This document shows, in pieces, positions 1 through 5,776 of a stretch of DNA of 34,154 bases. Under the pieces are notes generated by a model. That model ran no database searches and was not told the origin of the DNA. It saw only the letters and a list, made by a program, of their open reading frames with translations. The DNA is from Candidatus Thalassarchaeaceae archaeon. GTDB lineage: Archaea > Thermoplasmatota > Poseidoniia > Poseidoniales > Thalassarchaeaceae. Each line of letters begins with the position of its first letter. Position 1 is the stretch's first letter. Made by a program: the position numbers and the translations under genes. The stretch is from positions 1 through 34,154 of the forward strand of contig JALRLV010000004.1 of assembly GCA_023268715.1 (NCBI GenBank). Reading direction: 5' to 3'.

Positions 1-1
1 C

Positions 2-748
2 AGTCGAGAAGGCAGAGAGAGGCACTTGCTGGGTATCGCGAAGATGGCGAAGATGATGTCCAAGCACACCGATGTTCTATGTTCGTTCATCACCCCTTAC
101 GAAGATGTACGAGAGAAAATCCTTGAGATTCTACCTGATGATGCAATTATGGTGCATGTTTCCACTTCTCTTGAAGTCTGCGAAGAGCGTGATGTGAAAG
201 GATTGTATGCAAAGGCAAGAACTGGTGAAATATCCAACTTTACTGGGATTTCCGACCCATTCGATGAGCCGAAATGCGCCGATATTACTCTCAACTCAAC
301 AGGCGAAGAAGGCGGCTCAGTTGATGATATGGTCGAACAATTGGCTCACCTATTTGAGAAGAAGAAGGCGGTTCTCCTTCCTGGTCGATGGCAGCCCCTC
401 CACGTGGGTCATGAATGGTTAATTCAAAGAGAATTGGACCAAGGAAAGAGGGTTGTTGTAGGAATTCGCGACACCCCCGTTTCGGAATCAGATCCTTACT
501 CTGCTGATATGCGCAAGAGGATGATTGAGCACCGCTACGAAGGAGAGGATGTTGAGGCATGGATTATGCCTGATATCGAAGCAATTTCTTATGGGCGAAA
601 GGTTGGCTACGATCTTCGTGAAGCCGATGATATTCCTCCTGAAGTATTCGCTGTATCTGCGACTGGGGTTAGGGGTGGAAATAGGGCGAATGTATCTCAG
701 AAAGTCATGGAGTTCATGATTTCTGAGGGTATTTGGGATGGCGAATGA
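2..748 (+). CDS. cysC: APS kinase fused to HxGH nucleotidyltransferase domain (5' partial)
   Basis: The open frame runs in from the left edge without a start, so the N-terminus is missing. The first part matches the C-terminal half of adenylylsulfate kinase: a segment resembling the family's region around the APS site (ITPYEDVRE), then LEVCEERDVKGLYAKAR and FTGISDPFDEP, close to the family's EVCExRDPKGLY and FTGIDxPYExP. APS kinase phosphorylates APS to PAPS, the sulfate donor; the Walker A region would lie off-window. The last ~125 residues form a second domain with GRWQPLHVGH, an HxGH nucleotidyltransferase motif, and SATGVR near the end, resembling the ISxTxxR motif of NMN-adenylyltransferase and cytidylyltransferase-like enzymes. 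The motif is not the usual form in ATP sulfurylase, so its substrate is uncertain. Two sulfotransferases and a PAP phosphatase downstream support a role in sulfation. Confidence 0.87.
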   Translation, partial: SREGRERHLLGIAKMAKMMSKHTDVLCSFITPYEDVREKILEILPDDAIMVHVSTSLEVCEERDVKGLYAKARTGEISNFTGISDPFDEPKCADITLNSTGEEGGSVDDMVEQLAHLFEKKKAVLLPGRWQPLHVGHEWLIQRELDQGKRVVVGIRDTPVSESDPYSADMRKRMIEHRYEGEDVEAWIMPDIEAISYGRKVGYDLREADDIPPEVFAVSATGVRGGNRANVSQKVMEFMISEGIWDGE

Positions 749-773
749 AGCGCCTGCATAATCGTTAAGTTGG
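705..773 (+). repeat. Copy A of a ~69-bp direct repeat (3' end of APS kinase fusion)
   Basis: This copy covers the last 14 codons of the APS kinase fusion, its TGA stop and about 25 bases after it. It matches 1137-1204 over its whole length with about ten mismatches and one single-base indel. The spacing between copies is 432 bases. The copies bracket the small membrane-protein gene at 795-1136. Confidence 0.8.
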
Positions 774-794
774 TCCGTCTTCAATCTCTTTCTT

Positions 795-1136
795 GTGTCA
801 AAAGGGCGATTGCGGGATCTGCAAGTTTTGGTAGAGTTCGCAAAGAGATACCCCGGCTTTTCCTTAGTGGTTGGAATATTCATTGGATGGTTCCTCTACT
901 TGGCAATAAGTGACCTCGGAGTAATTGTGAGTGTTTTGTTGATTATTGGTCCGCTTTTTACTCCAAAGGATTTGGCTTACATATTGGTGCCTCTTGTTTC
1001 GTTCTTTCTGTTTATTTTCTCATTCATCAAGAGAAATCCATGGTTGGCCCTTCTAGCTGTATTGGGTTTTGTCTCTGTAATCGCATATGACTTGCATACT
1101 GCGTGTGATGGGCTTGAGGAAAGCGTGTGTGGATAA
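795..1136 (+). CDS. Small hypothetical membrane protein
   Basis: I do not recognise this 113-residue protein. It starts at GTG with a short basic N-terminus (MSKGRLRD) and then has about three or four strongly hydrophobic stretches at residues ~22-56, ~60-78 and ~83-97, so it is probably an integral membrane protein. The C-terminal tail contains two cysteines (HTACDGLEESVCG). It lies exactly between the two copies of the direct repeat, and its TAA stop ends at the first base before copy B. It may therefore have arrived with, or been created by, the duplication. A clean membrane-type composition supports a real gene; no function can be assigned. Confidence 0.6.
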   Translation: MSKGRLRDLQVLVEFAKRYPGFSLVVGIFIGWFLYLAISDLGVIVSVLLIIGPLFTPKDLAYILVPLVSFFLFIFSFIKRNPWLALLAVLGFVSVIAYDLHTACDGLEESVCG

Positions 1137-1204
1137 TCATGGAGTTCATGATTTCTGAGGGTATTTGCGACGGCGGGTGAGGCGCCGGGATAATCCTTAA
1201 TTGG
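1137..1204 (+). repeat. Copy B of the direct repeat (remnant of APS kinase 3' end)
   Basis: This repeats 705-773, including the coding end (MEFMISEG-I-like frame), a stop codon in the same place (GGGTGA) and the following intergenic bases. It has no open frame leading into it, so it is a non-coding remnant. It could mark an old tandem duplication or the edge of an inserted segment. Confidence 0.8.
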
Positions 1205-1225
1205 AAATCCTACGTATCGTTATTC

Positions 1226-1342
1226 GTGGCTTTACTTGAGTTGTTGGATATTATCATCTGGGTGATTCGGCGCCCAATGGAGGCTTTATTGGTAGCTTTG
1301 TTATTTGTCGCATTCATTGCTTTCGTCGCACCTCAATTTTAA
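1226..1342 (+). CDS. Possible 38-residue small membrane protein
   Basis: A short frame starts at GTG (1226) and ends at TAA (1340-1342). It encodes a 38-residue peptide: an amphipathic start (VALLELLDIIIWVIRRP) followed by one strong hydrophobic helix (EALLVALLFVAFIAFVAP). The pattern of one helix, a basic pair and a second helix is typical of small single-pass or hairpin membrane peptides. It fills the otherwise empty gap between copy B of the repeat and the Lon-domain gene. There is no clear ribosome binding site and the length is short enough to be chance, so this is a tentative call. Confidence 0.33.
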   Translation: MALLELLDIIIWVIRRPMEALLVALLFVAFIAFVAPQF

Positions 1343-1408
1343 GGGTGAGGTATTCTGTAGATATTTCTAATACCAACTGTTGAATATTAACTCTGAATCA
1401 TACCTTGT

Positions 1409-2155
1409 ATGGCAGAGGTCGTCACAGTTCCTTTGTTCGTCTTACCCATGGGTATTTTCCCAATGTGCCAAGAGCCGTTGAGGGTTTTTGAGCCAAGGTA
1501 CAAACAAATGCTCGACGATTGTGTCTTGAATAATTCTCAATTTGGTTACATTGCTGCAAATATCGACGGAGAAGGTGAAAATGGTTGGACTCTTCCTGCT
1601 GAATATGGTGTACTTACCTCCGCGGAGAATCTCCAGGAACAAGGGACAAATCTGATGTTTACTGCATACGGTGAAAAGAGATTCAGAGTGGTGAACATCA
1701 TCCCTGCAGCGCTTCCAGCCGAAGACTTTGGGGACGTTTTTCCGTCTGTTGACGAACTTGTTGAGCGATACATTGAGGAAAATGTTGAAGGAAAATTGTA
1801 CATCAGGGCTGAAGTCGAGATTTTGCCTCCACTGGATGGTGTCATTAATGATGATGATTGGACGGATATTTTGGAAATGTGGGCATGGCAGATTGTAGAG
1901 ATGTCGAGTATGTTTAGAAATGAAGAATTATCTAACTCCGAAGTCTTCTCGGTTCTGAAATCAGAGTTTTCGCCTTACTCAGAATTCTCTCTATGGTTTG
2001 CTTGCCATTCGCTATTGGATTCGATTGAGGATCGGCAGAGCGCACTAGCTTCTGCATCAGCAAACGATATCCTAGATTTACTGAAGATGAATGTTACAGA
2101 GAAAAATACACAGTTGAAGGCTATTCGTTCAGTTATGGAAAACGGCTCCGATTAA
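1409..2155 (+). CDS. Lon N-terminal (LAN/PUA-like) domain protein
   Basis: The 248-residue protein opens with PLFVLPMGIFPMCQEPLRVFEPRYKQML, the signature of the Lon N-terminal substrate-binding domain (PF02190): a hydrophobic strand, then P-L-x-V-F-E-x-R-Y. The domain fills roughly residues 5-215. There is no AAA+ ATPase or protease part, so this is a stand-alone LAN protein, as found in many bacteria. Such proteins are thought to bind unfolded polypeptides, but their role is not settled. The ATG at 1409 is preceded by a TATA-like AATATTAA about 22 bases upstream, compatible with a nearly leaderless transcript. Its stop directly abuts the alternative GTG start of the next gene, so the two are probably co-transcribed. 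Confidence 0.85.
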   Translation: MAEVVTVPLFVLPMGIFPMCQEPLRVFEPRYKQMLDDCVLNNSQFGYIAANIDGEGENGWTLPAEYGVLTSAENLQEQGTNLMFTAYGEKRFRVVNIIPAALPAEDFGDVFPSVDELVERYIEENVEGKLYIRAEVEILPPLDGVINDDDWTDILEMWAWQIVEMSSMFRNEELSNSEVFSVLKSEFSPYSEFSLWFACHSLLDSIEDRQSALASASANDILDLLKMNVTEKNTQLKAIRSVMENGSD

Positions 2156-2203
2156 GTGTCTCGGAGTCTGTATGCTCATAACTACGTAGTTTGGGCGGAC
2201 ATT

Positions 2204-3082
2204 ATGCTAGAAGTTCCTGAAGTGGGTGCTTTCCTGCTCGGTGCGCCTAAGTGTGGCACCACTTGGTTGGCTGAGGTGTTAACTCAGCATCCGGAAATAT
2301 GCGTCTCTGACCCTAAGGAGCCAAATATTGTCGCTAGCCACAAAGGAACCTTTGGACGAGATGATTCCGAGCCGGATTGGGTAGAATATGCAGGTTGTTT
2401 CAATGGGGCTGGTTTGCGAATTGATTGTTCGGTTCATGCAATGGCTTGCCCTATTGCTCCTTCTCGTGTGGCAAATAATTGGCCTAATGCGCGTCTTATC
2501 ATTTGTCTTCGAGAGCCGGTTAGTAGAACCGTTTCGCATTGGAATATGGTTCTGGATACGAAGGAGGATAAGGAAAATGGTGCTGATTGGAGTGACTTTA
2601 GTTCAGCTTGGGAGGACTCTCGTCTTTCTGATGATACTCTGTATGGTGCTGCGGTTGCAAGATGGTTGGAACACTTTGAGAAAGATTCAATCTTGTTGAT
2701 TGAGGCAAATCGTATGCGCCATGATGCTTCTATGGTTCTAGAAGAAGTTTGTAATCATCTTTCCATATCTTCACACACATTTGATTTTGATTCTGTACAT
2801 AATGCAAATACTGCCGCGGACCGGCGGCCGATGACTGTGTTTGGCCGTCTTTTCCGATTCACTGCGAGCCTGTTGCCGGGTTTCATCAAGGGGCCTATCG
2901 TCAGAAGATTGCAGACAAGGGGTGTGAATGTGTACAAAATGCCCGTTCTGTCAAGCAAGGCCCCTGCAAAGAGAACCATTACTGATCAACAACGGGCCCT
3001 ATTAGCCGAAGTCGTAAATCCAGACTTGGGGCTACTGGAAAAGTCCACTGGATTTGATTGCTCGAATTGGTATATTCAGTGA
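2204..3082 (+). CDS. PAPS-dependent sulfotransferase (first copy)
   Basis: This is a sulfotransferase-family protein that would transfer sulfate from PAPS to an acceptor. The 5'-phosphosulfate-binding loop is GAPKCGTTWLAEVL near the N-terminus. The 3'-phosphate-binding segment is LIICLREPVSRTVSHWNM, with the conserved R and S. The length (292 residues from ATG 2204) is normal for the family. I chose ATG 2204 because it places GAPKCGTT at about residue 13, as usual. The frame also allows a GTG at 2156 that abuts the preceding stop and adds 16 residues. There is no signal peptide or membrane segment in the core, so it probably acts in the cytosol or at the inner membrane face. The acceptor is unknown. 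It converges on the PAP phosphatase gene, whose stop lies 3 bases away. Confidence 0.88.
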   Translation: MLEVPEVGAFLLGAPKCGTTWLAEVLTQHPEICVSDPKEPNIVASHKGTFGRDDSEPDWVEYAGCFNGAGLRIDCSVHAMACPIAPSRVANNWPNARLIICLREPVSRTVSHWNMVLDTKEDKENGADWSDFSSAWEDSRLSDDTLYGAAVARWLEHFEKDSILLIEANRMRHDASMVLEEVCNHLSISSHTFDFDSVHNANTAADRRPMTVFGRLFRFTASLLPGFIKGPIVRRLQTRGVNVYKMPVLSSKAPAKRTITDQQRALLAEVVNPDLGLLEKSTGFDCSNWYIQ

Positions 3083-3085
3083 TTT

Positions 3086-4255
3086 TTATTGATGCTCGAC
3101 CCATGTCTCTGTCCATCTATTATCAGCGGCAACGAGGAAGTAGGGGTTGAGTACCTCTTCAACCAAGTCGTAGTCCAGTGTTTTTCCGTCTGGCCCGACT
3201 ACTATTCCTCCCGCGCCTGAGACGACAGCGTGTGCTGCGGCAATATCCCAACAGGAGGTTGGTCCGAATCTTGGGTAAAGATCGGCACCTCCTTCGGCTA
3301 CAATGCAGGCCTTGAGCGAAGAACCCATACGGACTAGTTCGTGTTCACCGACGGCTGCAGCAAAAGATTCGTCCTTTTCTCCTCGGTGAGAGCCGCTGGC
3401 GACTAATTTCACCTTACCTTCGCTCGGTTGTACCATCATTGAACCTGTTCCATCTGGCCCATGTCGTTGAGATGTTGTCAGAGCTCCTCCATACCACGTG
3501 GTTTCAGAAGCAGGGGCATGGACTACGCCAAACAGGGGTTTCCATCTTGAGCCGTTGCGTTGCATCAAGGCGATATTGACTGTAAACATACCATTTCTCT
3601 TGATGAATTCCTTTGTCCCATCTAATGGGTCAACCAGCCAACATATGTCGCTTGAAAGTGGGTCGCCTACTCTACCTTCTTCCGAGACAATAGGTGTGGA
3701 ATCGATTGACTGTAAGCCTTCAACGATTACTTCATGGGCTGCGATATCTGCTTTTGTTAACGGGGAGTCATCTCCTTTCTGGGTGATTTCGATGTCTTCT
3801 GCATTCTCATAGACATCCATTATTGCCTCGCCTGCTTGAATTGCTATCTTAACGATTTTTTCAGGAGAAAATGCATTAGTTTGTTGGGGTGAAATTTTTT
3901 GTAATTTTTCTTCTATATGGCTCTTCAAAAGATCTACTGAACCATCGAATGATGTTAGTTCCTCATCCGTTGCAAGCATAACAAAACCAGAGTTGATTTT
4001 CCCCACTATACATGGCGTCTTTCCTTCCGTTGCCGCCTCTACATCTTCGGGTCTTTCGTTCAAGTGAACTAGATGAAATGGTATTTCTGATGCGTTTCTC
4101 CATTCCTTCATTTCTCCCTTTTCCCATGCTATGCTATGAGTAATGTCGCAGAGTGAGCAGTGTTCTCCTCTGAACGCGACTCCCATGACGTAACGTAACT
4201 CTCCAAGCAAGCCGCCATCTGCGTGGTAGACACCCCACATCGACTCGACTGTCAT
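3086..4255 (-). CDS. cysQ: CysQ-type 3'(2'),5'-bisphosphate nucleotidase with extra N-terminal domain
   Basis: Residues ~128-389 match the inositol-monophosphatase superfamily, CysQ branch. They carry SEE (191-193), the metal-binding CWLVDPLDGTKEF (~205-217) and CWDIAAAHAVVSGAGG near the C-terminus. CysQ removes the 3'-phosphate of PAP, the product of sulfotransferases, yielding AMP. This fits the sulfotransferases on both sides. The protein is 389 residues against about 250 for stand-alone CysQ. The additional ~125 residues start with GVYHADGGLLGELRYVMG and HCSLCDITHS, a CxxC (C33, C36) followed by H40 that could bind a metal. I cannot name this domain. The start is ATG; convergent with the first sulfotransferase. 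Confidence 0.88.
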   Translation of the reverse strand: MTVESMWGVYHADGGLLGELRYVMGVAFRGEHCSLCDITHSIAWEKGEMKEWRNASEIPFHLVHLNERPEDVEAATEGKTPCIVGKINSGFVMLATDEELTSFDGSVDLLKSHIEEKLQKISPQQTNAFSPEKIVKIAIQAGEAIMDVYENAEDIEITQKGDDSPLTKADIAAHEVIVEGLQSIDSTPIVSEEGRVGDPLSSDICWLVDPLDGTKEFIKRNGMFTVNIALMQRNGSRWKPLFGVVHAPASETTWYGGALTTSQRHGPDGTGSMMVQPSEGKVKLVASGSHRGEKDESFAAAVGEHELVRMGSSLKACIVAEGGADLYPRFGPTSCWDIAAAHAVVSGAGGIVVGPDGKTLDYDLVEEVLNPYFLVAADNRWTETWVEHQ

Positions 4256-4268
4256 CTACAACACCGGT

Positions 4269-4823
4269 TCAGAATTCTTGTAATTCGTCTGATGCTCTCT
4301 CTAAACTTTCTCGTGCAGTTTCAGATAGATGTTGCATAAACGGATCTTCGTCACCCACGATTGTTTTCCATGAACTCATTGTGCGTTGCCAGATTTCCTG
4401 TTGGGAATTCCACTCAAGCCATCTATCGACAAAGTCACAATGGCGTTGAACTTCCTCATCATCTTCAGATATCTTGCGAAGAATAGTGTTAGTCTGGGCG
4501 AGAATAATTCCGAATGGTGCATTCAATTTGTAGGTTGTAAATGGATTTCTTTCCTGCACCACTGTTAGGTGTTCTCGCCATAAGCCGAAGGTTACGTCAT
4601 ACATCCAACCTATTGAGAGGACAATTAACAAAACTCCTGTGAATATCCCCAATAAACCCAGATATGTCGGTGGTATGCCGATTACTGAATCCATTTCTTC
4701 GAATCTCCAACTCGCTAATGGCCAAATTAACAAGGTCAAGGTTGTACACCAAAAACCCATAGAAATGAGGGTTTGGCTCTGCTGTATTCGCCAGTATTGG
4801 CGCATGGCTGTCTTCTTCAGCAC
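4269..4823 (-). CDS. Hypothetical membrane protein with two transmembrane helices
   Basis: I do not recognise this protein. It has 184 residues from GTG 4823; an in-frame ATG at 4805 would give 178. Two hydrophobic helices lie at about residues 22-38 and 52-74. A cytosolic, charged C-terminal half follows, rich in W, E and Q (EVQRHCDFVDRWLEWNSQQEIW) and probably helical. It lies 13 bases upstream of the CysQ gene on the same strand, so the two are probably one transcript. It sits between the PAP phosphatase and the second sulfotransferase. This makes a link to sulfation possible but unproven. Confidence 0.7.
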   Translation of the reverse strand: MLKKTAMRQYWRIQQSQTLISMGFWCTTLTLLIWPLASWRFEEMDSVIGIPPTYLGLLGIFTGVLLIVLSIGWMYDVTFGLWREHLTVVQERNPFTTYKLNAPFGIILAQTNTILRKISEDDEEVQRHCDFVDRWLEWNSQQEIWQRTMSSWKTIVGDEDPFMQHLSETARESLERASDELQEF

Positions 4824-4924
4824 GGTTGGGGCTCATTGCTATCCTCTTTCACGATTCCGCTTAGATGTCGGTGTTGTTCGATATATTCATCTCTAAAGCG
4901 CCGGACGCTGGGTGGGGCATCTAA

Positions 4925-5776
4925 GTGTACTTTCCTGGGCTTTGGACTGTGAAACAGATTGGATTAGATCTGAGGCGTGCATTTGGGAGTAGGCCTGCTG
5001 AGCCGGTTTTCCTCATCACGTATCACAAAGTGGCTACGGTCCTGATTCGGAAAGTGATGATGGAGGTCGCTGAAAATATCGGGTGGCGGTATACTAGCAC
5101 GATGGGAATTGCGGAATATATTCCGAAAAATACCGATATGCTTCATGTGATTCATGGAACTGGAACCAAGGATTTCTTCTCATCAGGAAAAAAAGGTATT
5201 CGGATTATTCGTGACCCTCGTGATGTGATAGTTTCTGGCTTCCTTTACCATCAGAGATGTTCTGAAATTTGGTGTACAAATTCTGATTTTACAAACCCCA
5301 ATCATCCATTTCCCCAAGTGCCTTGGCCTCTAGATGGGGCGGAATTAGCCACTAAAGAAAACTATGTGGCTAGTTTGGATGGACTTTCATATCAAGAAAA
5401 AATTCGTTCCTTGGATAAAGAAGAGGGTTTAATTTTCGAAATGGATGGTTTTGCTAAGTTAACCATCGATGAAATGATTTCTTGGGAGCATGAAGATAGT
5501 GTGTTGACTATCAAGATGGAAGATTTGATTGGAGATTTTGATGGTCAATTTGAGAAAATTTTTCGTTGGTTGGAGATAGAGGATGAATATATTGCAAGTT
5601 GCTTAAAGATAGCTGTAGCCCATGATATGAACAGAATGGGGGATGAGCAAATTGCCTCTAACCCCCACATTTCTACGGGGAAATTGAGGAAATGGGAAGA
5701 ATATTTCACACCCAACGTGTCAAAGGCTTACCAAGAAAGGTTTGCTGACGCCCATAAAAAATTGGGTTATGAGTGA
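4925..5776 (+). CDS. Sulfotransferase-family protein (second, divergent copy)
   Basis: The protein has 283 residues. PVFLITYHKVATVLIRKVM occupies the place of the 5'-phosphosulfate loop (family consensus around TYPKSGTxW). KGIRIIRDPRDVIVSGFLYH is a clear 3'-phosphate-binding segment, with R and S placed as in RDPRDVxVSxYxH. The C-terminal region (HISTGKLRKWEEYFTP) resembles the RKGxxGxWKxxFT motif. It is thus a PAPS-dependent sulfotransferase, but only distantly like the copy at 2204. It keeps K in the loop while the following SGT is replaced by VAT. Start GTG 4925. It reads divergently from the membrane protein at 4269-4823 across a ~100-base gap that holds AT-rich stretches (ATATATTCAT, TCTAAAG). 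Confidence 0.8.
   Translation: MYFPGLWTVKQIGLDLRRAFGSRPAEPVFLITYHKVATVLIRKVMMEVAENIGWRYTSTMGIAEYIPKNTDMLHVIHGTGTKDFFSSGKKGIRIIRDPRDVIVSGFLYHQRCSEIWCTNSDFTNPNHPFPQVPWPLDGAELATKENYVASLDGLSYQEKIRSLDKEEGLIFEMDGFAKLTIDEMISWEHEDSVLTIKMEDLIGDFDGQFEKIFRWLEIEDEYIASCLKIAVAHDMNRMGDEQIASNPHISTGKLRKWEEYFTPNVSKAYQERFADAHKKLGYE

Follow-up and report, generated by a model that had tools for sequence, protein, structure and literature searches.

The window analysed here comprises bases 1 to 34,154 of one contig (C44) in a 1.55-Mb assembly of 92 contigs from Candidatus Thalassarchaeaceae/Thalassarchaeum, the lineage known as Marine Group IIb (MGIIb). A sequence-only reading of this DNA had proposed a sulfation locus dependent on 3'-phosphoadenosine 5'-phosphosulfate (PAPS). 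All four genes that it placed within 5.8 kb are present at about the positions given: an adenosine 5'-phosphosulfate (APS) kinase, a CysQ-type phosphatase for 3'-phosphoadenosine 5'-phosphate (PAP) and two differing sulfotransferases, ST1 and ST2 (Table 1). The proposal itself is supported, and the locus is conserved in MGIIb archaea. What that reading did not report is that the kinase open reading frame (ORF) ends in a complete second domain of ~125 residues, a NadM-like nucleotidyltransferase (NTase; CTP_transf_like PF01467, residues 125-248), and it is this kinase-NTase fusion that bears on how the locus obtains its PAPS.

The kinase ORF (2-748, + strand) matches PF01583 over profile positions 52-151. 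Walker A is missing from the window because the contig begins inside the gene, at a cost of ~45 N-terminal residues. Full-length fusion orthologs are ~293 residues long, and Walker A, GLSG[AS]GK[TS], is intact in 16/16 of those aligned; a kinase lacking this motif, which the sequence-only reading would have taken as evidence against itself, was thus not what the relatives revealed. The missing N-terminus was not recovered from another contig: the sole other PF01583 match in the assembly, on C5, is FtsY, and the left end of C5 codes for another protein. The APS-binding and lid region, DxKG[LM]YxxAxxGxIxxFTG, is present in the window as DVKGLYAKARTGEISNFTGI, with the lid DVKGLYAKAR and FTGI both found. 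Kinase scores range from 95 to 141 bits with Pfam (cut-off 21.1), and reach 136.8 bits with the NCBIfam apsK model TIGR00455 (cut-off 138.7). The domain can be aligned over ~165 residues with the kinase of animal PAPS synthetases, and the top PDB match to a model of the full-length fusion was human PAPSS1, driven by the kinase part. Assignment of the N-terminal half to the APS kinase family is strong, and the corresponding activity is predicted.

The NTase half carries GRWQPLHVGHEW near its start, then GRKVGY and, near its end, VSATGVR (SATGVR). It scores 31 bits against nicotinamide mononucleotide adenylyltransferase (NMNAT) profiles and ~23 bits against TIGR01527 (NadM), the latter over the first ~70 positions only and with a cut-off of 181 bits. 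Nearly all genomes have a separate NadM-like gene (in the source genome, G000:C11:141214-141735), and these genes, at 50-88 bits, likewise fall below the curated TIGR01527 cut-off. When aligned to the separate gene, the fusion NTase is seen to retain the HxGH motif (GR[FW]QP[LF]HxGH), the NP/ER region, the PDI motif and the ISxTxxR-type motif, while two NadM segments are missing, one of which holds the NW stretch of the nicotinamide mononucleotide (NMN) site. Because a separate NadM-like gene is present and NMN-site segments are missing, the fusion NTase is, judged on sequence, not the housekeeping NMNAT of the cell. Its conservation equals or exceeds that of the kinase half (mean pairwise identity 86% vs 82%), and it appears to be under purifying selection, with omega ~0.03 for the NTase vs ~0.06 for the kinase, values drawn from few unsaturated pairs. 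The catalytic domain of the ATP sulfurylase Sat, PF01747, has no match in the fusion protein. No close relative of the NTase was found among IMG/VR viral contigs, and a fold search against viral models gave generic cytidyltransferase-like matches only. Matches in Pseudomonas and Acidobacteria were rejected as a NadR-like protein or chance matches.

Gene counts were made in 79 family genomes (Thalassarchaeaceae), with genera labelled g1 to g11, the window belonging to g1. In the Poseidoniales, PF01583 finds two types of protein: type a, a CysN-CysC fusion of ~644 residues with CysD adjoining, and type b, the kinase-NTase fusion of ~300 residues. Within the family, type b occurs in 29 genomes and type a in 12, and no genome has both. 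Sat was detected in 0/79, and true CysD together with CysN above its cut-off was confined to the 12 type-a genomes, leaving 0/29 for fusion genomes. The genomes with type b are thus ones that lack every known sulfurylase, and the ATP sulfurylase that had been expected to lie leftward of the window is found neither in the source genome nor in any other fusion-bearing genome of the family. The control consisted of 98 sampled Thermoplasmatota genomes from outside the Poseidoniales in which the APS kinase is unfused: Sat is present in 80, CysD and CysN lie beside the kinase in 13 of the 18 Sat-less genomes, and in several of the last five a contig end truncates the locus. The contrast between 93/98 and 0/29 gives a Fisher p of 8e-24 with kinship ignored; since relatives do not count as independent samples, the value serves as description and not as a corrected test. 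Matches to PF01583 of 20-25 bits and to PF01507 of 20-30 bits in relatives were set aside as GTPases of the FtsY type or as other proteins with a PP-loop, and sub-threshold TIGR02034 matches were assigned to GTPases that resemble elongation factors. Fusion genomes yielded no recognised PAPS reductase, their PF01507 matches being weak, which is consistent with sulfation rather than assimilation.

Gene order points in the same direction. The order w211-GGGPS-prefoldin-like-L18A-m184-CysQ-(ST1)-X-prefoldin-FtsY is kept across genera, where X is the fusion in g1 (for example G034 and G011), g3, g5, g7 and g9 (G046), and CysD-CysNC in G065 (g1), G058 (g9) and G056 (g10). In two genera, g1 and g9, a single slot thus holds either the fusion or CysD-CysNC with the flanking order otherwise kept; the exchange is an in-place swap. 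CysQ adjoins the fusion or CysD-CysNC, and CysQ-(ST1)-kinase adjacency recurs in g1, g3, g5, g7 and g9. ST1 is found in 39/79 genomes and adjoins the fusion in g1, g5 and g9; it accompanies the kinase in 35 of 41 kinase genomes and occurs without it in four. The kinase co-occurs with CysQ (Fisher p = 8e-16) and with ST1 (p = 7e-12), in both cases across the 79 genomes with kinship ignored. The clustering of sulfation genes is far beyond chance, and relatives in which kinase, CysQ and sulfotransferase never occur together, a finding that would have told against the sequence-only reading, are not the rule: the genes do co-occur across the family. The same island also contains genes for ribosomal protein L18Ae, prefoldin, FtsY and GGGPS on contigs of metagenome-assembled genomes (MAGs), as would be seen if housekeeping genes had come to lie together by chance with no joint function. 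Such an origin is extremely unlikely, since co-occurrence already contradicts it: CysQ, ST1 and kinase are jointly absent from g4, g6 and g11, as well as from nearly every genome of g7 and g8, and jointly present elsewhere, even where ST1 is on another contig.

Beyond the MGIIb, tblastn with the window NTase found the same fusion on plasmids of the haloarchaea Haladaptatus, Halostagnicola, Natrinema, Natronococcus, Halocatena and Haloprofundus, with an NTase 41-44% identical to that of the window. Where annotated, the protein is described as the kinase alone ('cysC adenylyl-sulfate kinase', e.g. WP_227356187.1). The kinase half retains the canonical DRTENLRR and KGMY lid, and a sulfotransferase gene lies directly upstream of the fusion in 5/5 records opened; no CysQ was seen adjoining there, unlike in MGIIb. 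A YqcI/YcgG-family gene follows or accompanies the sulfotransferase-fusion operon on these plasmids (L149, L150, L151, L152 and L153). A further tblastn search, against phage records, recovered five phage genomes with a kinase-NTase fusion of 26-28% identity that forms a divergent group, phrog_10255. The carriers are Stenotrophomonas phages DLP_6, Suzuki and Bhz60, Xanthomonas phage AhaSv and Clavibacter phage 33 (KU682439.2, OR797045.1, MZ326855.1, OR820514.1 and OR548257.1; loci L144, L145, L147 and L148). These fusions share the NTase motifs YGRxVGY and ISATxIR with the archaeal protein, and the HxGH-superfamily motifs GRWQPLHVGH and VSATGVR are kept in haloarchaea and phages alike, barring conservative changes.

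Taken together, the data make it quite probable that the locus serves glycan sulfation and has at its core a PAPS synthase made of one polypeptide, with the fusion taking the place of CysD, CysN and CysC. The C-terminal domain itself is likely to represent a third, separately evolved kind of ATP sulfurylase that arose from NadM-type adenylyltransferases and was reduced to ~125 residues, which would make the fusion a ~290-residue PAPS synthase that replaces CysD-CysN-CysC in place and is found in both MGIIb and haloarchaea. The ATP sulfurylase activity of the NTase and the identity of the product as PAPS are predictions of this model. The NadM-like domain would transfer AMP from ATP to sulfate, giving APS, which the N-terminal APS kinase domain would then phosphorylate at the 3'-OH to give PAPS. 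ST1, joined in some lineages by further sulfotransferases, would move the sulfo group onto its target, for which a surface glycan is the likeliest candidate, and CysQ would hydrolyse the inhibitory by-product PAP. The sequence-only reading had left the target as a surface glycan, a lipid or an exported metabolite; of these, the acceptor is probably a glycan, because ST1 orthologs that lie away from the fusion in other genera commonly have a GT2 or GT4 glycosyltransferase, along with further sulfotransferases, as neighbours. The solved relatives of ST1 include heparan sulfate 3-O-sulfotransferases.

The proposed enzyme resembles known systems in part. As in animal PAPSS1/2, a kinase is followed by an adenylyltransferase and PAPS is the proposed product, but the sulfurylase part of PAPSS1/2 is a Sat domain (PF01747) of ~390 residues. 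With CysD-CysN/CysC, the fusion shares the slot beside CysQ and ST1 and the inferred reaction from ATP and sulfate to PAPS; that system consists of three domains in two proteins and has a PP-loop and GTPase sulfurylase, neither of which is present in the fusion. In both sequence and fold, the second domain comes nearest to archaeal NadM proteins (TIGR01527; MJ0541 1f9a, 2qjt), in which the NMN-binding segments absent from the fusion are present.

Several observations weigh against this interpretation. The NTase is closer by sequence and fold to NMN and phosphopantetheine adenylyltransferases than to ATP sulfurylase: in a fold search with the NTase model (predicted local distance difference test score 83), NadM and phosphopantetheine adenylyltransferase came out on top, and the ATP sulfurylases 3cr8, 1g8f and 2gks appeared only with weak E-values, so structure neither proves nor excludes a sulfurylase. 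MGIIb kinases have His (RERH) where most APS kinases have Asn (RxEN), although the His is common to Aeropyrum 2yvu and haloarchaeal members retain the Asn. The MAGs are 60-97% complete and absence from them is no proof, yet the absence of known sulfurylases is consistent over 29 genomes. One Poseidoniaceae MAG, G059, carries both a CysN-CysC fusion (C2:41029) and a kinase-NTase fusion (C43:1819), which may reflect either a real joint presence or contamination during binning. The haloarchaeal evidence is confined to plasmid records. The main reason for caution is the phage relatives. Their two-domain architecture is that of the archaeal fusion, and yet the kinase part has no APS lid in the two phrog_10255 proteins compared, no sulfotransferase lies beside the fusion in the four phage records opened, and the neighbours are NADAR, MazG and DNA-metabolism genes (NADAR adjoins in Bhz60, and a MazG-like gene is near in three phages). 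A kinase-NTase architecture therefore need not always mean PAPS.

Two other accounts of the fusion have to be considered in this light. The protein could be an ordinary APS kinase, supplied with APS by an unrelated and unrecognised sulfurylase elsewhere in the genome, with the NTase in a regulatory or other role. The kinase domain bears the hallmarks of an APS kinase by itself and the NTase is nearer to NadM than to Sat, as this account would have it, but the extra sulfurylase would have to track the fusion precisely, occurring in just those genomes that have it and lack both CysDN and Sat. The swap with CysD-CysNC moreover replaces sulfurylase and kinase together, and two archaeal lineages as well as the phages have kept the catalytic motifs of the NTase; we regard the account as rather unlikely. 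It is less likely still that the fusion has nothing to do with sulfate and that both domains act on some other small molecule, in NAD salvage or on an activated sugar, alcohol or phosphoramidate. The lid-less phage relatives near NADAR and MazG genes and the resemblance of the NTase to NMNAT lend this some colour, and CDP-phosphoramidate is the substrate of a CysC homolog from Campylobacter. Archaeal members of the family, however, retain the APS lid (KG[LM]Y, FTG[IV]), are accompanied by sulfotransferases in both lineages and, in MGIIb, by CysQ as well, and exchange with CysDNC; separate NadM-like genes also exist. A PAPS synthase accounts best for the archaeal fusion.

Two enzymes that are unrelated to each other, Sat and CysDN, are known to activate sulfate, and we know of no chemistry yet for surface-glycan sulfation in planktonic archaea, to which the genome-scale evidence given here is tied. 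If true, a third and very small ATP sulfurylase would fill what looks like a gap in a pathway of ocean archaea that are abundant and uncultivated, would call for correction of 'APS kinase only' annotations in haloarchaea, and would offer biotechnology a compact PAPS-making enzyme; it would also be easy to test, haloarchaea being cultivable. Orellana et al. 2019 (PMC6864105) reported CysD, CysN and CysC as present in MGIIb and absent in MGIIa, with sulfotransferases named as PAPS users. A supply of PAPS by way of CysDN and CysC has thus already been proposed for MGIIb; no description of the fusion route was found in the open literature searched, a coverage that mostly excludes subscription papers.

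Table 1. Features at the left end of the window
Feature	Position	Strand	Basis
APS-kinase domain of kinase-NTase fusion, 5' truncated	2..349	+	PF01583 95 bits; aligned to solved APS kinases and PAPS synthetases
NadM-like adenylyltransferase domain of fusion (C-terminal), proposed compact ATP sulfurylase	350..748	+	PF01467; NMNAT profiles; fold match
Lon-N protein (LON substrate-binding)	1409-2155		PF02190, 35.8 bits
ST1, PAPS-dependent sulfotransferase (predicted)	2204..3082, ORF open from GTG 2156	+	PF00685/PF13469; PAPS-binding motifs
CysQ PAP phosphatase domain (predicted)	3086..3874	-	TIGR01331; 3b8b match
~127-residue N-terminal domain fused to CysQ	3875..4255	-	Matches to query residues 1-~125 at other loci
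m184, small conserved protein, probably membrane	4269..4823	-	Next to CysQ across genera; no Pfam match
ST2, second sulfotransferase, sporadic	4925..5776	+	PF00685 46 bits

The remaining genes of the locus differ in how far they belong to it. ST1 has the 5'-phosphosulfate-binding motif PKCGTTWL and the 3'-phosphate-binding motif REPVSRTVSHW; in ST2 the former is divergent (HKVATVLI) and the latter clear (RDPRDVIVSGF). ST2 had been counted as part of the locus, but it occurs in 3/79 family genomes and is a lineage-specific neighbour. CysQ scores 226.7 bits against TIGR01331 (cut-off 228.8), has the motifs DPLDGT and WDIAA, and matches the solved CysQ 3b8b at 159 bits. The predicted Lon-N protein was confirmed; its gene lies between kinase and ST1 only in the closest relatives of the window, whose subclade is rearranged. 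Accessory roles had been suggested for this protein and for the small or membrane proteins nearby. The suggestion holds up for m184, which is conserved across genera and is a possible accessory part of the locus, and fails for ORF113 and Lon-N, which are lineage-specific.

Some smaller observations concern the same genes. m184, which belongs to no Pfam family, adjoins CysQ across genera, or lies near ST1 where CysQ is missing (G028 and G109). The ~127-residue domain N-terminal to CysQ is fused to it only in the subclade of the window and is a stand-alone ORF of ~130 residues in other genera. Other Thalassarchaeaceae genera also have small islands of two or three different sulfotransferases with GT2 or GT4 genes (L162, L164, L165 and L170), and in G042 a TylF-like methyltransferase is found.

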